Shown one piece after another: positions 5,200 to 36,092 of a stretch of 36,092 bases of DNA. A program made the translations under genes and the position numbers. The DNA lies in NCBI GenBank assembly GCA_945877905.1, contig CAMDUT010000006.1, forward strand, positions 1 to 36,092, in the 5' to 3' direction. This DNA comes from Phycisphaera mikurensis NBRC 102666. Its GTDB lineage: Bacteria; Planctomycetota; Phycisphaerae; Phycisphaerales; SM1A02. Positions within the stretch are counted from its first letter, which is position 1; each line of letters starts with the position of its first letter. Under the pieces are notes generated by a model. The model was not told the origin of the DNA. It saw nothing but the letters and a program-made list of their open reading frames with translations, and ran no database searches.

Positions 5200-5469
5200 T
5201 TACTTGCGGAGGCCGAGCTTCTGGATGAGCTTCTGGTAGCGCTCGCGGTCGGTGCGCGCGAGGTAGGTCAGCAGGCGGTTGCGGCGACCGACCATGAACA
5301 GCAGGCCGCGGCGGCCGTGGTGGTCCTTGGGGTTCGCCTTGAAGTGGTCCTGCAGCGCGCCGATGCGCTCGCTGAGGATGGCCACCTGGACCTCGGGCGA
5401 GCCCGTGTCGGTGGAGTGGGTCCGGTTGCCGCTGATGACCGCGGCCTTCTTCGTTGCGGAGATCGACAT
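5200..5469 (-). CDS. rpsO: 30S ribosomal protein S15
   Basis: 89 aa; [18 protein letters not shown]...[21 protein letters not shown]...[12 protein letters not shown]; rpsO-pnp synteny. Confidence 0.97.
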
Positions 5470-10940: not shown

Positions 10941-11993
10941 TCAGGCCTGCCCCTCGGGCTTGCCGAGCTGCGAGCGCATGGCGGTGTCCGCCATCATGTT
11001 CTGCATGCGGTAGTAGTCCATCAGACCGAGGCTTCCCTTGCGGAGCGCCTCGCTGATGGCCTTGGGGATCTCGGCCTCGGCGAGCACCACCAGCGCGCGG
11101 TTCTTCTGGCCCTCGGCCTGGAACTCGGCCTCCTGCGCCACGGCCAGCGCGCGCCGCTGCTCGGCCTGCGCCTGGAAGCGCTTCGTGTCGGCCTCGGCCT
11201 GCGCGGTCTGCAGGTTCGCGCCGATGTTCTCGCCGACGTCGATGTCCGCGATGTCGATCGAGAGGATCTCGAACGCCGTCCCCGAGTCGAGTCCCTTTGC
11301 GAGCACCGTCTTGGAGATCTTGTCCGGGTTCTCGAGCACGCTCTTGTGGTCCTCGGCGCTGCCGATCGTCGAGATGATGCCCTCGCCGACGCGCGCGATG
11401 ATCGTCTCCTCGGTGGCGCCGCCGACGAGCCGCGAGATGTTCGTTCGCACCGTGACGCGCGCGCGCGCCTTCAGCTGGATGCCGTCCTTCGCCACCGCGT
11501 CGATGGTCTGGCGGCCGCTCTGCACGCTGGGGCAGTCGATGACCTTCGGGTCGACGCTGGTCTTGACGGCGTCGAGGATGTCGCGTCCCGCGAGGTCGAT
11601 GGCGGTGGCGCGGTCCCACGGCAGGTCGATCTTGGCCTTGTCGGCGGCGATCATCGCGCGAACCACGCGCTCGATGTTGCCGCCGGCAAGGTAGTGGCTC
11701 TCGAGCTGGTCGGAGTCGATCTCGAGGCCGGCCTTCTTCGCGGAGATCCGGTTGAAGACGATCTCGGCGGGCGCCACCTTGCGCAGGCGCATCATCACGA
11801 GCTTCAGGAGGCTCACCGGCGCGCCCGAGAGCCACGCCTGGACGGCCAGCTGGATGTACTGGCTGATGACGATCAGCGCGACCAGGCCGATGAGGCCCAC
11901 GACCGCGAGGATGACCCAGAAGACGACCGAGCCGGTACCGACGGCCTGCGCGAGCGTCGTCGCGCCGTTCCCGAGGAAGTCAAGGTGCTGCAT
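10941..11993 (-). CDS. floA: Flotillin-like protein FloA (SPFH superfamily)
   Basis: N-terminal [114 protein letters not shown]. Confidence 0.95.
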
Positions 11994-12000
11994 GCCGCGG

Positions 12001-12006
12001 ATGCTA
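12001..12006 (-). promoter_or_regulatory. Candidate leaderless -10 element (TAGCAT) for floA; includes the TAG stop codon of the preceding NfeD gene
   Basis: Minus strand GGATAGCAT-CCGCGGC-ATG: TAGCAT followed by exactly 7 nt and the floA ATG; no -35 hexamer. Confidence 0.45.
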
Positions 12007-12642
12007 TCCGCGCGCCCGGACGGCCACGCGGCCCGCCGCGGCCTCGGTGACCACCACCTCGGTGCCCGGCTCGATCATGCCGAGGTCCGCGACCACCTCG
12101 ATGCGCTCGCCGCCGAACCGCGCGAAGCCCACGGGCCGCAGCGCGGTGAGCGCGACGCCCGAGTCGCCGGCCTTCACGGCGCAGGCGGTGGCGCGCGCCG
12201 TCGGCCCGGCCGGCGCGTCCGGGCCGGGCTCGTGCGCGTCGCCGAGCACCATCCTGCGCGCGATCGGCGTGCGCGACCAGAGCTTGAAGCCGAACACCAC
12301 CGCGAACGGCGCGCCCGCCGCGTACGCCACCAGCGCGGCGAAGCCCCACGTGACGCTGTGCATGAAGAACGCGACCACCGACGCCACGAGGCAGACGGCC
12401 GTGGCCACGGCGAGCACGCCGGCGGTGGGGACGAAGAGCTCGAGGAACGCGAGCACCGCGCCCACGCCGAGCAGCACGAAGCCCGTGGCGATGAGGGCGG
12501 ACGAGCTCGCCGCCGCGGCCTCGGCGGGCGCGGCGGCCGACGCCGCGGTGGAGGCGTCCTGCGCGAGCGCCGCCGCGCACGCCAGCGTCGCCGCAAGCGC
12601 GGCCATCGCGATCGTTCGGCGGATGTTCGTCGGCACGGTCAT
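12004..12642 (-). CDS. NfeD-like membrane protein (short form)
   Basis: Signal/TM helices followed by C-terminal OB-like domain [53 protein letters not shown] start overlaps the upstream NfeD stop (ATGA); adjacent to floA. Confidence 0.85.
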
Positions 12643-14333
12643 TCGCACGGCTCCACCTCCACACCATACGCGTCGGAGCGCACCACGCGGACGGGCGTCC
12701 CGGCGTCGACGAAGGCGCCGCGGGCCTGCACCTCCAAGGTGGCGGTCCCGAACTCCGCGCGGCCGACGGGCCGCAGCGGCGTGAGCGCGCGTCCCGCGTC
12801 GCCGACCGCCGGCCGCACGGCGCGCGGCGCGGGCGACGTGGCGCCCTCGATGCCCGCCTGCGCCTCGAGCACGGCCGCGCGCACGATGCCCGCGCGCGGA
12901 ACCACGCGCAGCAGGACCCACGCGGCGCCGCCGGCGAGGATGAGCCCGCCCGCGACGACGCCGAGGCCTCCAGCGAGGTCGCTGCGGCCCTCGGGCGTGT
13001 CGAGCGGCGCGCCGATGAAGCTGCCCACGATCCCCACCAGGATGCAGGCGACGCCCATGATCCCGACCACGCCGACGCCCGGGACGAGGAACACCTCGGC
13101 GAGCACCAGCGCGGCGCCCGCGACCACGACCAGCAGCGGCCACCACGACGTCACGCCCGCGAGGGCCGGCGCGCCCAGGAGCAGCACCAGCGCGACGGTC
13201 GCCGCCGCCCCAGGCCAGCTGAGCCCGGGTGCCATCATCTCGAGGACGAACCCGCCGAGCAGCACCGCGATCAGGAGCAGGCGCACCGGCCACGAGGTCA
13301 GGAACCGAACCACCGCGTCGCCGAGGTTCTCGTCGCGGCGGTCGAGCGCCGTCGCGCCGAAGAAGGCCGCCAGCGCGCGGTCGTCCTCGACCGTGGCGAG
13401 CGACATCCCGAACGCCGCGGCCTCCGGGCCCTGCACCACCAGCAACTCCTGCGCGCCGTCCACCTGTCCCGCCACGCGCCACGAAGGGGCGTCGGCCGGG
13501 GTCAGGCGCGCGCGCACCGGCGGTCGCACCTGCTGCTCCGCCACCAGCGCGTCGCGCTCCGCGTCGTTCGCGGGGCCGTCCTCGCGCGTCGCCCGGCGCA
13601 TGGCGCGGTCCACGAGCACCGCAAGCGGCCGCTCGCCCGCAAGCGCCCCACGCGGCGCGGCGCCCGCGGCGCGCGAGGTGGGCGGGTCCTCGCCGAACGC
13701 ATCGCGGAACTCCTCGCGGCCGACGAAGATGCGCCGCCCGTCCTCGGCCGACTCGAGCGCCCAGACCTCGTCGGGCGCGCTCACGAACGCGCGCACCACG
13801 GTCTCGTCGTAGCCGTTGCGGCGCGCGCTGTCGACCACCTCGCTCAGGACGGGCGCCTCGAGCTTGGCGCGCTCGGCCACGGGAAGCGGCTGGAGCCCCA
13901 GGCCGGGCAGGGCCGCGATCGGCGCGGCGTCGCCCATCGCGGCCGCGGGGCTGGTGACGATGCCGCGGCACGCGAGCGCGATGATGGCGCCGGCGCTGAA
14001 CGCGCGCGGCCGGACCCACGCCCACACGGGCACCGGCGCCCGTTCCTTCAGCCAGATGCAGAGCCCGAGCGTCGCGTAGAGGTCTCCGCCGGGGGTGTCG
14101 AGCTCGAGCACCACGGCGTTCGCGCCGTCGCGCGCGGCGGCCTCGACGCGTCGCTGGGCGCTCGCGCATCGGACGGCATCGATCTCCCCGTGCACGGTGA
14201 CCACCGCGATGCGGCTTGCCTGGCGCCATGCCGGCGCCGAGGCCACCTGCGCGCCGGCATGCGCCGACGCCCACGCCGCGCCCCCGAGCGCGAGCCACGC
14301 GACCAGCCGTCGGAACGGTCCCGCGATCCGCAT
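12639..14333 (-). CDS. NfeD family protein with N-terminal ClpP/SppA-like serine protease domain (long form)
   Basis: VVLELDTPGGDLYATLGLC, RAFSAGAIIALACRGIVTSPAAAMGDAAPIA, multiple TMs, C-terminal ALTPLRPVGRAEFGTATLEVQARGAFVDAGTPVRVV. Confidence 0.88.
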   Translation of the reverse strand: MRIAGPFRRLVAWLALGGAAWASAHAGAQVASAPAWRQASRIAVVTVHGEIDAVRCASAQRRVEAAARDGANAVVLELDTPGGDLYATLGLCIWLKERAPVPVWAWVRPRAFSAGAIIALACRGIVTSPAAAMGDAAPIAALPGLGLQPLPVAERAKLEAPVLSEVVDSARRNGYDETVVRAFVSAPDEVWALESAEDGRRIFVGREEFRDAFGEDPPTSRAAGAAPRGALAGERPLAVLVDRAMRRATREDGPANDAERDALVAEQQVRPPVRARLTPADAPSWRVAGQVDGAQELLVVQGPEAAAFGMSLATVEDDRALAAFFGATALDRRDENLGDAVVRFLTSWPVRLLLIAVLLGGFVLEMMAPGLSWPGAAATVALVLLLGAPALAGVTSWWPLLVVVAGAALVLAEVFLVPGVGVVGIMGVACILVGIVGSFIGAPLDTPEGRSDLAGGLGVVAGGLILAGGAAWVLLRVVPRAGIVRAAVLEAQAGIEGATSPAPRAVRPAVGDAGRALTPLRPVGRAEFGTATLEVQARGAFVDAGTPVRVVRSDAYGVEVEPCE

Positions 14334-14339
14334 GGGACA

Positions 14340-14345
14340 AGGATA
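14340..14345 (-). promoter_or_regulatory. Candidate leaderless -10 element (TATCCT) for the long nfeD gene
   Basis: Minus strand CGGATATCCT-TGTCCC-ATG, 6-nt gap to the start codon. Confidence 0.35.
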
Positions 14346-16975: not shown

Positions 16976-16981
16976 TACGAT
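16976..16981 (+). promoter_or_regulatory. Candidate leaderless -10 element (TACGAT) for the RidA gene
   Basis: CCTTACGAT-TCCGCCC-ATG, exactly 7 nt to the start codon. Confidence 0.45.
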
Positions 16982-16988
16982 TCCGCCC

Positions 16989-17450
16989 ATGGACTTCGCC
17001 GCACACCTCGCGTCGCTCGGGATCACGCTCCCCCCCGCTCCCAAGCCGGTCGCCGCGTACATCCCGGCCGTGCGCACGGGCAACCTGATCTTCGTCTCGG
17101 GGCAGCTGCCGATGCGCGACGGTGCCCTGATCGCCACCGGCCCCGTGCCCTCGGCGTGCTCGGTGGATGTGGCGCGCGAGTGCGCTCGCCAGTGCATCCT
17201 GAACGCCCTCGCCGTGGTCGGCGACCAGCTCGGCGGCGACCTGTCCCGCGTCGTGCGGATCGTGCGCGTGGGCGCCTTCGTGCAGTCCGACGACGGGTTC
17301 ACCGAGCAGCCCAAGGTGGCGAACGGCGCCAGCGAGCTGCTGCAGCAGGTGTTCGGGGAGGCCGGTCGGCACGCGCGCGCCGCGGTCGGCACCAACGCGC
17401 TGCCCCTCGGCGCGAGCGTCGAGATCGACCTCATCGTCGAGGTGCGCTGA
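16989..17450 (+). CDS. RidA family protein (YjgF/YER057c/UK114, atypical ~150-aa form)
   Basis: [31 protein letters not shown]...[12 protein letters not shown]...[66 protein letters not shown]. Confidence 0.9.
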
Positions 17451-23290: not shown

Positions 23291-23378
23291 CGGGGCGGGT
23301 CTCGAGTTATCAACCCTATGGGGCGCCGGGCGTGCAATGCCGCACCGCGTCGTTCGTTCAGATCAGGAGGTTCAACCC

Positions 23379-23870
23379 ATGAACGGTTCGTCCGACCATC
23401 ATCCGGAACTCGATCCCGCGCTCCGCGCGCTTGCGGATCGGCTCGACGCGCGTGGTCGCGCGCATGCCGCCGAGCGCCCCGGCCTCGCGGACCGAGTGTT
23501 CGCCGCGAGCCGCACGGAGCTCCCGCGCATCGACGTGGTCGGCCGCGTGGGGTTCGCGTCGGCCGCGGTCCGCCGCTGGTCGTTCGCGGTCGCGGCCACC
23601 GTGCTGCTCGCGGCGTCGGTCGCGGTGTACATGCGCGCGCTCCCCGCGGCGAAGGTGCCCGCAGGGGACATCGCCGCGGCGCGCTCGGCCGTGCTCGCCC
23701 CTGCCAGCGGCTCCGAGTCGCTGCTCGTGGCGCTCATCGACCAGGAGGCGGCGCTCGACGACGACGACGGACTGGATGCCGCGAGCGCGATCGCGCTTGC
23801 GCACCGAGGGTCGGCCGACCTCGTGGCGGTGGAGCTCGACGAGCTGCTCGCGACCGGGGGCCGGCGATGA
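23379..23870 (+). CDS. Small single-TM protein, putative anti-sigma factor for the adjacent ECF sigma
   Basis: Cytoplasmic N-terminus PALRALADRLDARGRAHAAERPGLADRVFAAS, one TM RWSFAVAATVLLAASVAVYMRAL, short C-terminal domain; AGGAGG SD; position directly after the ECF gene. Function inferred. Confidence 0.6.
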   Translation: MNGSSDHHPELDPALRALADRLDARGRAHAAERPGLADRVFAASRTELPRIDVVGRVGFASAAVRRWSFAVAATVLLAASVAVYMRALPAAKVPAGDIAAARSAVLAPASGSESLLVALIDQEAALDDDDGLDAASAIALAHRGSADLVAVELDELLATGGRR

Positions 23871-24634
23871 GCGCGGCGCACGCGCGCGCGTCGGCCTCCG
23901 TGGCCGTGGCATTCCTCGCCTGGTGCCTCGCGTTGCCCGCATGGGCGCAGGCGCCCGCGTCGCAGCCGGCGCCTCCCGCGCCCGCGGACCCTGCGCGACG
24001 CGGCGACGGCCCGCGCTGGCGCGCGGACGCCCCCATGGCCGCGGAGATGGCCGATCGCATCGTGGCCGTGGCTCGGGACGTCTCGCCGGAGCTCGCCGCC
24101 GAGATCGAGAAGGCGCGCACCGAGAGCCCCGAGCGCATGGCGCAGTCGATGCGCCAGAACGCCCGTCGGCTGATGGGCCTTGCGGTGCTCAAGGACCGGA
24201 ACCCGGATCTCTACGCGATCCGCGTCGAGGAGCTCCGGCTGCAGCTGGAGCTCCGGGCGCTCGGCGAGCAGTGGCGCGCGGCGAACGAGGCGAAGGACGC
24301 TTCGCGTGCCCAGCAGCTGTCGCAGCAGATCGACGCCAAGGTGCGCGCGCAGGTGGACGTCGACCTCAAGGCGCGCGCCCAGGAACTGGTCGCGCTCGAC
24401 GCGCAGCTGAAGTCGCTGCGCGAGGAGCTGGTCGACGAGCAGCGCCGGATGGCCGAGCGCGTCGCGGAGCGGATCGAGGCCGTGAAGAGCGGGCAGCCGA
24501 TGCCCGGGCGCGACCGCGACCGCGCGGGCCCGGGCGGCGGCGATCAGGGCGAGTCCCGTCGGCCCGCCCGCCCGCGCCCCGACGAGCGCGCGCCGGCCGA
24601 CGGCAAGCCCTCGGGCGCCGCGGGCGCTCCGTAG
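23867..24634 (+). CDS. Secreted/periplasmic alpha-helical protein with coiled-coil core and disordered Arg/Pro-rich tail
   Basis: Signal peptide SVAVAFLAWCLALPAWAQA; helical RIVAVARDVSPELAAEIEKARTESPERMAQSMRQNARRLMGLAVLKDRNPDLYAIRVEELRLQLELRALGEQW...LKSLREELVDEQRRMAERVAERIEAVKSG; ATGA overlap with the previous gene. Confidence 0.7.
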   Translation: MSAAHARASASVAVAFLAWCLALPAWAQAPASQPAPPAPADPARRGDGPRWRADAPMAAEMADRIVAVARDVSPELAAEIEKARTESPERMAQSMRQNARRLMGLAVLKDRNPDLYAIRVEELRLQLELRALGEQWRAANEAKDASRAQQLSQQIDAKVRAQVDVDLKARAQELVALDAQLKSLREELVDEQRRMAERVAERIEAVKSGQPMPGRDRDRAGPGGGDQGESRRPARPRPDERAPADGKPSGAAGAP

Positions 24635-24637
24635 ACT
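24632..24637 (+). promoter_or_regulatory. Candidate leaderless -10 element (TAGACT) for the first permease gene; contains the upstream TAG stop codon
   Basis: TAGACT-CCGCCGC-GTG, exactly 7 nt to the start codon. Confidence 0.45.
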
Positions 24638-24644
24638 CCGCCGC

Positions 24645-25625
24645 GTGGATTCGCTCCAGCGTCGCTGGGCCATCGCAGGGTGGTCGGTGCTCATGGCCAT
24701 CGTCGCCGCGTGCGCGCTCGCCGCGCCGTGGAGCTTCGGATCGGTGCGCATGGGCGAAGCGGAGGTGGCGCGCTACGCCGCGTCCAACCTGACGCTGAAT
24801 CACCTGCCCCCCGCGTGGCGAGCCCTCGACGAGGCGCAGCGCGCCCGAGTCGACGCGGCGGCGGCGGCAGGTGACTACGTGCCTGGCCGCGCGCTCGGCA
24901 CCGACGCGCTGGGACGCGACATGCTGGCACGCCTGCTCGCGGGCGGCGTGTTCAGCCTTGCCGTCGGGCTCGCGGCGGCCGTCATCGCCGTGACGCTCGG
25001 CACGGCGTGGGGCGCGCTTGCCGGGTACCTCGGGGGCCGGACTGACTCCGTCATGATGCGGTTCGTCGACGTGCTGTACGGGCTTCCCTCGATCCTGCTG
25101 GTGGTGCTGCTCGCGGTCGCGGTCGACGGCCTCGTCGCACGATGGTTCGGCTCGCTCTCGCCCGCGGCCTCGCAGGCCGTCGGGCTCGCCGTGCTCTTCG
25201 TGGCCATCGGCGGCACGGGGTGGCTCACGATGTCGCGCGTGATCCGCGGGCAGGTGCTGAGCCTGCGCGCGCAGCCGTTCATGGAGTCGTGCCGCGCCGT
25301 CGGAGTGCCGGCGTGGCGGCAGTTCACGATGCACCTCCTGCCGAACCTCGTCGGACCGATCGTCGTCTACGCGACGCTCGCGGTGCCGGCGGCGATCCTG
25401 AGCGAGAGCTTCCTGAGCTTCCTGGGGATCGGGGTGCGCGAGCCCGTGCCGAGCTGGGGGAACCTCGCGAGCGCGGGGCTCGCCGAGGTCAACCTCGTCG
25501 ACAGCCGTTGGTGGCTCCTCGCGGCGCCGTGCGCGATGATCGCCGCGACCCTCGTCGCGCTCAACTTCGTCGGCGACTCGCTGCGAGCGCGGTTCGACCC
25601 CGCCGCGGCGCGGTCGCGGTGGTGA
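24645..25625 (+). CDS. Peptide/oligopeptide ABC transporter permease (DppC/OppC-like), first copy
   Basis: GRALGTDALGRDMLARLLAGGVFSLAVGLAAAVIAVTLGTAWGALAGYLGGRTDSVMMRFVDVLYGLPSILL; EAA-like CRAVGVPAWRQFTMHLLPNL; SESFLSFLGIGVREPVPSWGNL. Confidence 0.92.
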   Translation: MDSLQRRWAIAGWSVLMAIVAACALAAPWSFGSVRMGEAEVARYAASNLTLNHLPPAWRALDEAQRARVDAAAAAGDYVPGRALGTDALGRDMLARLLAGGVFSLAVGLAAAVIAVTLGTAWGALAGYLGGRTDSVMMRFVDVLYGLPSILLVVLLAVAVDGLVARWFGSLSPAASQAVGLAVLFVAIGGTGWLTMSRVIRGQVLSLRAQPFMESCRAVGVPAWRQFTMHLLPNLVGPIVVYATLAVPAAILSESFLSFLGIGVREPVPSWGNLASAGLAEVNLVDSRWWLLAAPCAMIAATLVALNFVGDSLRARFDPAAARSRW

Positions 25626-30694: not shown

Positions 30695-31752
<1,058 letters not shown>

Positions 31753-31796: not shown

Positions 31797-32408
31797 ATGG
31801 CGCCCATCGAAGTCGGCCGCAAGGCCCCCGCGTTCTCCGCTCCCGACCAGTCGGGCACCCGCCGCACGCTGAGGGAATTCGCGGGCCGGCCGCTGGTCCT
31901 CTACTTCTATCCGAAGGACGACACCCCGGGCTGCACGGTCGAGGCGTGCTCGTTCCGGGATGCCTGGGCGCGGTTCCGCAAGGCCGGCGCCGACGTGCTC
32001 GGCGTCAGCCCGGACGGCGCCGCGAGCCACGGGAAGTTCATCGGGAAGTTCCGGCTGCCGTTCGCGCTGCTCGCCGACGAACCCGCGGGGGCGAAGCCGC
32101 CCGCCATCTGCTCGGCGTACGGAACGTGGGTCGAGAAGTCGATGTACGGCAAGAAGTACATGGGCGTCGCCCGCACCACGTACGTCATCGGGCCCGACGG
32201 GAAGGTGGCCGCCCGCTTCGACAAGGTGACCCCCGAGGGCCACGCCGACGAGGTGCTCGCGGCGATCGCGGCGCTAGGCTCCCCGCCATGCAAGGCCACG
32301 CCGTCGAAGTCCGGTTCAAGCGCCTCCGCGCGGGCGCCCAGGTCCCCGCGTACCAAAGCCTCCACGCGGCGGGCCTCGACCTCCACGCGTGCCTCGAAGC
32401 GCCGATGA
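31797..32408 (+). CDS. bcp: Thioredoxin-dependent peroxiredoxin (Bcp/PrxQ) with anomalous C-terminal extension overlapping dut
   Basis: LYFYPKDDTPGCTVEACSFRDAW with C-X4-C; family-like end near ADEVLAAIAAL, after which the frame continues ~46 aa (GSPPCKATPSKSGSSASARAPRSPRTK...) into the dut gene. Confidence 0.88.
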   Translation: MAPIEVGRKAPAFSAPDQSGTRRTLREFAGRPLVLYFYPKDDTPGCTVEACSFRDAWARFRKAGADVLGVSPDGAASHGKFIGKFRLPFALLADEPAGAKPPAICSAYGTWVEKSMYGKKYMGVARTTYVIGPDGKVAARFDKVTPEGHADEVLAAIAALGSPPCKATPSKSGSSASARAPRSPRTKASTRRASTSTRASKRR

Positions 32409-32763: not shown

Positions 32764-32769
32764 TATCAT
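32764..32769 (+). promoter_or_regulatory. Candidate leaderless -10 element (TATCAT) for the DegT-family gene
   Basis: CCCTATCAT-CCTCGGA-ATG, exactly 7 nt to the start codon. Confidence 0.45.
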
Positions 32770-33979: not shown

Positions 33980-34660
33980 TCACCGCGCGAGCGCTTCGAG
34001 GCCCGTGAGGCCGATCGGCTCGCGCGCGTGGAACGGCTCGCCGGTCGCGGTGCCGATGCGGCTCCCGAAGTACGTGCCGGCCGCGTCGAGCCACTCGACC
34101 ACGTGCCGGTTGCGCTCGTTCTCCACGAACTGACTGCGGTACGCGAGCACCGCCTCGCGCTTGCGCGCGGCGAAGCCCGTGGTGTCGACGACGAACGAGG
34201 GCTGCGGCACCGTGCGCAGGTGCGTCGCCCAGTAGTGAAAGAGCCACTTCGCGTGCCATGGTTCGCCGGGCAGGTCGGTCTTCGTCAGCTTCGCGTCGAA
34301 GCGCGCGTCCTCGACGATGCGCGTGCCGGCCACGTGGTCGGGGTGCGCGTCCTCGGGGTGCGGGACGAAGATGACGTCCGGGCGGAAGCGGCGGATCTCC
34401 GCGGCCACGAGGTGCCGTGCCGCCACGGAGTGCACCAGCTCGCGGTTCGGGAGCCCCAGCGTCACGCGCTCGGCGCCGAGGATGCGTGCGGCCTCGGCGG
34501 CCTCCGCCGCGCGCCGCTCGCGCGTGCCATGGGGCGTGGGTTCGCCGTCGGTGAGGTCGAGGAGCAGCACGCGGTGCCCGGCCGACGCGAGGCGCGCGAT
34601 GGTGCCTCCCATGCCGAGCTCCTGGTCATCCGGGTGCGGGCCTGCGACGAGGACGTTCAT
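33980..34660 (-). CDS. PIG-L/LmbE-family deacetylase (BshB1-like)
   Basis: MNVLVAGPHPDDQELGMGGTIARLASAGHRVLLLDLTDGEPTPHGT; PDVIFVPHPEDAHPDHVAGTRIVEDARFDAKL. Confidence 0.9.
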   Translation of the reverse strand: MNVLVAGPHPDDQELGMGGTIARLASAGHRVLLLDLTDGEPTPHGTRERRAAEAAEAARILGAERVTLGLPNRELVHSVAARHLVAAEIRRFRPDVIFVPHPEDAHPDHVAGTRIVEDARFDAKLTKTDLPGEPWHAKWLFHYWATHLRTVPQPSFVVDTTGFAARKREAVLAYRSQFVENERNRHVVEWLDAAGTYFGSRIGTATGEPFHAREPIGLTGLEALAR

Positions 34661-34667
34661 GCGAAGG

Positions 34668-34673
34668 AGCCTA
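34668..34673 (-). promoter_or_regulatory. Candidate leaderless -10 element (TAGGCT) for the PIG-L gene; contains the upstream TAG stop codon
   Basis: Minus strand CGCTAGGCT-CCTTCGC-ATG, exactly 7 nt to the start codon. Confidence 0.45.
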
Positions 34674-36092
34674 GCGGCTCAGGGCGCGCGCGATCTCGGC
34701 CATGCGCGTCGCCGCCGGGCCGTCCCGGTGGACCAGCGGCGCCAGCTTCGCGGCGCGCGACGCGAGCTCCGCCCGCAGCGCCGCGGCGAGCGGCGCGTTC
34801 CCGGCGGCGCGGGCATGCGCCTCCTCGGCCGCCAGCCTCCCGACGAGCGCCCACTCGGCGCGGTGCGATCCCATCCACGAATCCGCCGCCGGCGCGTCCG
34901 CGGCCGCCGCGAGCGCCGCCCCGAGCGCGGGCCGGGGCGCGGCCCACGGCGCGACGCGCTCGGAGAGCAGCGCCACGAACCAGGCGAGCGGGAGCTCGTC
35001 GTCGAGCCTCGCCAGCTGCGCGTCGGCGCCCGCCGCGTCGCCCGCGAGCAGGCACTCGAGCGCCAGCGCGCCGCGTCCGGCGATCGCCTTGGGATGGATG
35101 GCAAGGTCGGCGACGGGGCTCGACCAACCGCCCCACCGCTCGAGGTCGCGTGCCCCGGCCAGCCGCGGCGACAGTGCGTTCGACGCCTCGAGCGCCGCCA
35201 TGACGCGCGCGAGGCGCAGCATCGCTCCCGTGGCCTCCGCCGTGCCGCGTCCGTCGGACCACGCCTTCACCCACCGCGTGCGCGCGCGGTCGATCGCGCC
35301 CAGGAGGTCCTTGCCGCGCCCGAGCGCCGCCTCGGACGCCGCGGGGCTCGATGCGCGCAGGCCCGCCTCCAGCGGCAGCGACCGGAAGGTCTCGAGCTCG
35401 CGGGCGAACCGGTCGACCGTCGCGCGGGCGGCGGCCTGCTCGGCGGGGAGCTTCAGGTTCGCCACCCACCGCTTCGTGAGGGCGACGAAGCGTTCCCGCG
35501 AGGGTGCGTTCATCGCGGCGATCGCGTCCGGCCAGCCCTTCATCGCTGCGAGCCGCGCCGGGTCCGCGGCGCCCGGGTCCGGCGCACCGTCGGGCGCGGC
35601 GCCCGGGTCGGCCGGCATTCCTCCGCCGCCCGGCCCGAGTTCCGCCTCCGCGGGCCACGCCGTCGCGGGAACCACCGCGGGCGGCGCGCCCGGGGCCCCC
35701 GTCGATCCGGACCCCTTGGCCTCGAGCAGCGCGACGGCCTCGCGCATCGGCGCGAGCACCTCGCGGAGCGCGCGCTCGGGCTCGGCCGCGGGCGGCGGCA
35801 CGTCGAGCCCGTGCTCGGCCGAGCGCACGAACCGCGCCAGCGCCGCGGTCACGGCGGGGCTCACGCGGCGCTCGGCCTCCGCGGAGGCGAGCGCGGCATC
35901 GAGCGCGGCGCACGCGCGCGCGAGGCGCAGCCCCGCGACCGCCATGGCCTGCGCGTCGTCCGGCGCGTCGTTGCCGCGGGAGAGCAGGTCGAATGCCACG
36001 CGCCGCAGCGCGAGCGCCGCGTCGCGCGCGGGCCCGGGCGGCGTCGCCGACATCCGCTCGATCTCGCGCCGCACGGACTGCGCCGCCGCGAC
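34671..36092 (-). CDS. Hypothetical Ala-rich protein, 5' end beyond the window (partial)
   Basis: Frame open to the window edge (VAAAQS-VRREIERMSATPPG...); ends ...RMAEIARALSR*; Pro/Gly-rich linker in the middle; no recognised domain. Confidence 0.6.
   Translation of the reverse strand, partial: VAAAQSVRREIERMSATPPGPARDAALALRRVAFDLLSRGNDAPDDAQAMAVAGLRLARACAALDAALASAEAERRVSPAVTAALARFVRSAEHGLDVPPPAAEPERALREVLAPMREAVALLEAKGSGSTGAPGAPPAVVPATAWPAEAELGPGGGGMPADPGAAPDGAPDPGAADPARLAAMKGWPDAIAAMNAPSRERFVALTKRWVANLKLPAEQAAARATVDRFARELETFRSLPLEAGLRASSPAASEAALGRGKDLLGAIDRARTRWVKAWSDGRGTAEATGAMLRLARVMAALEASNALSPRLAGARDLERWGGWSSPVADLAIHPKAIAGRGALALECLLAGDAAGADAQLARLDDELPLAWFVALLSERVAPWAAPRPALGAALAAAADAPAADSWMGSHRAEWALVGRLAAEEAHARAAGNAPLAAALRAELASRAAKLAPLVHRDGPAATRMAEIARALSR

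Follow-up and report, generated by a model that had tools for sequence, protein, structure and literature searches.

Introduction

An ATGA-type 4-bp stop/start overlap between neighboring genes brings about translational coupling; it joins the translation of genes on one mRNA and creates no new transcript. A stop codon that overlaps the Shine–Dalgarno (SD) motif of the next gene has been found to shift stop usage at certain spacings (PMC2784483). Promoter elements can also lie close to the start codon. TA-led leaderless genes, described in high-GC genomes, carry a TANNNT -10 box ∼12 bp upstream of the start (Zheng et al. 2011, PMC3160421), and in Deinococcus-Thermus a -10 element that directly adjoins the ORF drives leaderless expression, as tested with reporters, and is described as sufficient without a -35 element (PMC12340547). 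The first of these studies mentions neither stop codons nor Planctomycetes (PMC3160421), and the second does not mention stop codons (PMC12340547). In the open-licence literature, we found the SD/stop analogue (PMC2784483) and no report of stop codons used as -10 boxes.

Here, we analyze a stretch of 36,092 nucleotides (the window), one of the 201 contigs of a 2.47-Mb Phycisphaerales MAG. The original prediction, made from the letters of the window, was that its TAG stop codons double as the first half of a TAGNNT -10 box of the next gene, which would begin 7 nt further on, and that TAG is kept where such an overlapping leaderless promoter is needed.

Genome and gene calling

The window has a GC content of 72.6%, and its FloA protein is 89–91% identical to those of Phycisphaerales MAGs, e.g., Phycisphaerales bacterium UBA966. 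Genome-wide counts covered 2.03 Mb, i.e., ∼82% of this fragmented MAG. Genes were called with a codon-usage model that is blind to promoters and penalizes overlaps mildly; gene starts are predicted. In the 2.03 Mb, 1779 genes were called, with TGA (1505), TAG (131) and TAA (48) as stops, so that TGA accounts for 89% of stops in the genome. For the spacing analysis, we used genes with a reliable score and recorded same-strand starts 11–16 nt from the first base of the stop.

Results

An independent codon-usage call of the window returned exactly three TAG stops, one TAA stop (the gene at 5200–5469, rpsO according to the earlier reader) and TGA everywhere else, in agreement with the original prediction. 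Each of the three TAG stops forms part of TAGNNT-N7-start, and the sequences at 24632 (+), 12006 (−) and 34673 (−) match those described before. On the forward strand, TAGACT (24632..24637) contains the stop (24632–24634) of a helical-protein gene without a Pfam match (23318..24634), whose stop is certain and whose start is uncertain, at either 23318 or 23867. The same hexamer is the putative -10 of an ABC-type permease gene (BPD_transp_1; 24645..25625, +; Pfam PF00528, E 3.8e-24), from which it is separated by the 7-nt spacer CCGCCGC (spacer and GTG start, 24638..24647, +; TAGACT-CCGCCGC-GTG). This is the commonest spacing at such overlaps, and it would place the transcription start at or beside the G.

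The other two junctions lie on the reverse strand. TAGCAT (12001..12006, −) ends the second of two NfeD-like genes (12004..12642, −; a gene call with the NfeD C-terminal domain in frame, E 3.8e-6) and is the putative -10 of floA, which encodes a flotillin-like protein (10941..11993, −; Pfam PF12127, E 1.2e-147), with the spacer CCGCGGC and the ATG start at 11991..12000 (−; TAGCAT-CCGCGGC-ATG). The two NfeD-type genes stand in tandem upstream of floA (12004–14333, −); the first (12639–14333, −) has NfeD1b and membrane domains and its own TATCCT-N6-ATG, an ordinary putative -10 at 14340..14345 (−). Similarly, TAGGCT (34668..34673, −) is the stop of a hypothetical gene of 467 aa without a Pfam match (34671..36074, −) and the putative -10 of a gene for a PIG-L family deacetylase (33980..34660, −; Pfam PF02585, E 3.9e-28), with the spacer CCTTCGC and the ATG start at 34658..34667 (−; TAGGCT-CCTTCGC-ATG).

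Putative -10 boxes that coincide with no stop are also present in the window. These comprise TACGAT-N7-ATG (16976..16981, +) before a YjgF-family gene at 16989 and TATCAT-N7-ATG (32764..32769, +) before a DegT-family gene. A TAG-bearing box, TAGGCT-N7-ATG (32275..32280, +), precedes the gene called at 32288; its TAG at 32275 is the stop of no called gene, the preceding one ending at 31752.

To place these cases in the genome, we compared the three stop codons by their distance to the next start. As the original prediction would have it, a same-strand start some 10 nt further on and a T at +5 were both strongly overrepresented at TAG stops: a start at 11–16 nt was found for 37/113 TAG genes and 4/44 TAA genes, compared with only 60/1453 TGA genes (TAG vs. 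TGA, odds ratio 11.3, p = 5e-20), and the share of TAG among stops was ∼37% at this spacing vs. 5% elsewhere. When the next start lay 11–16 nt away, T occupied +5 in 34/37 TAG and 3/4 TAA stops vs. 3/60 TGA stops. Of the remaining same-strand TAG stops, 8/34 had the T, and so did 5/42 TAG stops that end convergent genes (34/37 vs. 5/42, p = 1e-13). When offset 13 alone was counted, the T was present in 16/16 TAG and 1/1 TAA stops vs. 0/12 TGA stops. A count of raw ATGs, which uses no called downstream starts, found an ATG at 12–16 nt for 36 of the 71 same-strand TAG stops, 32 of which had T at +5. A pattern search of the genome for TAGNNT-N7-RTG, a crude measure that ignores the reading frame, gave 76 hits vs. 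61 in the reversed control.

We then examined the hexamer irrespective of stop codons. TANNNT lay 12–16 nt upstream of 36.5% of divergent starts, compared with 2.2% for the control interval of 22–26 nt. It also preceded 40% of starts with a gap of 10–20 nt to the upstream gene but only ∼3% of starts that overlap the upstream gene. Since the hexamer is frequent at divergent and gapped starts and rare at overlapping ones, it follows the need for a promoter rather than the opportunity for translational coupling, and judging by these positions, putative leaderless-type promoters are general in this genome. The base before the start codon is usually C, and the resulting pyrimidine-purine step suits a transcription start. 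No -35 element was seen within the upstream coding ends, TTG occurring at -35 spacing in ≤2% of sites. Position 3 of ordinary -10s is C in 49%, G in 27%, T in 22% and A in 3%. The -10 precedes the start by 12, 13, 14, 15 and 16 nt in 138, 138, 39, 87 and 35 cases, respectively, with peaks at 12, 13 and 15 and a clear dip at 14.

Altogether, 437 genes are TANNNT-led, and 205 of these follow a gene on the same strand. In 38 of the 205, the stop of that gene coincides exactly with the -10 (34 TAG and 4 TAA). From -60 to +15, every other offset has 0–6 upstream stops, with none at -3 to -1 or at +1 to +4. Against ∼2.6 per offset, 38 coincidences correspond to a Poisson p of 9e-31. The observation that a TAG stop can be the first half of TAGNNT is confirmed genome-wide. 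The partner genes that we sampled are real, since 9/10 of the proteins from overlap pairs carry Pfam domains. A second, minor compact arrangement, TAYNNTGA, in which the last T of the hexamer is the T of the upstream TGA, occurs in four genes at offset +5.

These counts also refine the picture drawn from the window. The spacer of 7 nt is the mode and is not fixed, ranging from N5 to N10. TAG is the stop at 34/38 overlaps and TAA serves at the remaining 4/38, a ratio of 34:4 that fits position 3 of ordinary -10s, where G makes up 27% and A 3%. The notion that TAG is kept for an overlapping promoter would hold for ∼34/114 TAG stops; it does not account for the other 70% or so. Forty-two convergent genes end in TAG without a promoter reason.

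We also compared two of the junctions with their counterparts in relatives. At NfeD→floA, TAA (8 loci) or TAG (4 loci), followed by [C/G]AT, N6–N9 and ATG, was found in 12/12 readable genus members. Among these 12, there was no TGA (a stop without a -10) and no TAC or TAT (a -10 without a stop), which suggests that both functions are conserved at the floA junction across the genus. Gene calls on the pooled loci of genus mates confirmed the stops, with T at +5 in 13/13 TAR stops at overlap spacing. The genus comprises members of ∼60% GC and members of ∼73% GC (loci L142–L152); at the floA junction, most low-GC members have TAA and most high-GC members have TAG. The permease junction behaves differently. 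Here, TAGACT is invariant across 12 readable genus loci, but its TAG is the stop in only 2/12, the present genome and its nearest relative. In 6/12 loci, a TGA lies in frame three codons upstream, in 3/12 a TGA lies 29–44 nt upstream and out of frame, and one locus is unreadable. Since TAGACT is kept although the upstream gene mostly stops earlier, the promoter is the conserved element at this junction, and the use of TAGACT as a stop appears to be secondary, either derived or labile. The predicted dual role is thus borne out by conservation at floA, whereas at the permease junction it is the putative promoter that is conserved. Across the wider order, leaderless genes leave a weak signal (∼12–14% of divergent starts) and overlaps are few. 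Samples from other lineages gave no basis for judgment, being small or containing few TANNNT-led genes: Deinococcus deserti plasmid 2 has 15 same-strand TANNNT-led genes with 1 overlap, Thermus pTT27 (50 kb) has 6 with 0 overlaps, and Rhodococcus pRHL1 (550 kb) has 15 with 0 overlaps. A FloA search of the plasmid collection returned nothing useful.

Discussion

Together, these results make it highly probable that stop codons and -10 boxes are fused at these junctions, such that the leaderless TANNNT promoter of the next gene overlaps the upstream stop and dictates its identity. The lineage would rely heavily on leaderless transcription, with RNA polymerase directed mainly by a TANNNT -10 that ends 5–10 nt before the start and has no visible -35 partner, and the 5′ end of the mRNA would lie at or beside the start codon; promoter activity and leaderless translation are steps that we infer. 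In genes arranged head to tail, the TA of the -10 would often come from the upstream TAG, and sometimes from TAA, with the sixth position fixed as T. A single hexamer would then end the translation of gene A and start the transcription of gene B, which would gain a promoter of its own while using zero free intergenic DNA. At overlap junctions, the downstream promoter would dictate the stop codon because TGA, although it makes up 89% of stops, cannot supply the TA. Read from sequence, the interpretation given in the original prediction is supported, softened on three points.

We considered three other explanations. Chance, or a coincidence that stems from the TA-poor, GC-rich composition of the genome, has a vanishingly small probability: the three window cases are weak alone, three out of three at the genome rate having a probability of ∼0.03, but the genome-wide counts exclude it, with p values of 5e-20 for the spacing, 1e-13 for the T at +5 and 9e-31 for the 38 coincidences. 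It is improbable, too, that TAGNNT with its start is a translational signal, i.e., a termination–reinitiation context or a ribosome-binding element, and no promoter at all. The gene pairs are near enough for coupling, and ribosomal protein S1 has also been invoked to account for AT-rich signals before starts (PMC5397173); yet the same hexamer stands at the same distance from more than a third of divergent starts, which have no same-strand upstream gene, and it is rarest at overlapping genes, where coupling is tightest. Moreover, TAG stops of convergent genes do not share the T at +5 (5/42), which rules out a translation-termination context as its cause.

The remaining explanation, which we regard as a real though rather unlikely possibility, is a passive trap: selection on the downstream gene keeps the -10 in place, and frames from upstream run into an in-frame TAR, the stop itself being unselected. 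This is what the permease junction looks like, with TAGACT invariant in 12 loci, a stop in two and, in six, in frame but preceded by a TGA three codons earlier. Likewise, of the TAR -10s that do not overlap a stop, 11/34, about one third, share the frame of the upstream gene; as this is the neutral rate, a selected in-frame back-up stop behind the real one is ruled out. However, given a random frame and the ordinary composition of position 3, an upstream frame that reaches the -10 is expected to stop there in ∼10% of cases, whereas 38 genes stop on the -10 vs. 17 that read on within 40 nt, in calls that mildly penalize overlaps; floA, moreover, keeps A or G at position 3 in 12/12 members. The fused hexamer may have evolved by such trapping or by recruitment, in which stops give rise to promoters or the two functions are maintained jointly. 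The trap is favored by the permease junction and by the in-frame rate of 11/34, while the 38:17 ratio and floA favor more than a trap.

Fusion of the stop with the -10 would connect subjects usually handled apart, namely the choice of stop codon, the evolution of promoters and the compaction of genomes, and would give a concrete reason why TAG stops persist in a genome dominated by TGA. It would further make internal transcription starts within apparent operons predictable from sequence alone, and in such lineages, assigning co-directional neighbors 10 nt apart to a single operon could be a mistake. GC-rich genomes have little TA outside stop codons, and the fusion also points to these codons as a possible origin of new promoters there. 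More generally, we see an about even chance that leaderless-rich, TGA-dominated genomes retain or recruit the minority stops TAG and TAA as ready-made -10s, so that stop choice would in part be a transcriptional trait and fused hexamers would be doubly selected and conserved over the lifetime of a genus.

How do these junctions compare with known systems? With the ATGA overlap, they share the principle that the bases of a stop codon are common to the signal of the next gene. ATGA-type overlaps also occur in this genome (296 TGA genes at offset -1), and the starts studied here are set apart from them, lying 11–16 nt beyond the first base of the stop. With the stop/SD overlap (PMC2784483), they share an initiation signal of gene B that overlaps the stop of gene A; there, however, the signal is an SD motif acting in translation, while here it would be a promoter hexamer, the spacer is N5–N10, and TAR takes the place of TGA. 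At our overlaps, the constrained pattern is TA...T rather than an SD motif on the stop codon; AGGA, GGAG and GAGG are absent at most listed junctions, AGGA occurring only in the TAGGAT class. In Deinococcus-Thermus (PMC12340547), likewise, the -10 immediately precedes the ORF; the phylum differs, and the evidence came from reporters there and comes from sequence here. Hexamer, distance to the start and low information in the three middle positions are shared with the TA-led leaderless genes (PMC3160421). As in that class, TANNNT ∼12 bp upstream is enriched over neighboring positions and stands at the first genes of transcription units rather than at tightly coupled genes. The leaderless genes described there are operon-proximal, whereas at our junctions the stop codon of the upstream gene is part of the box.
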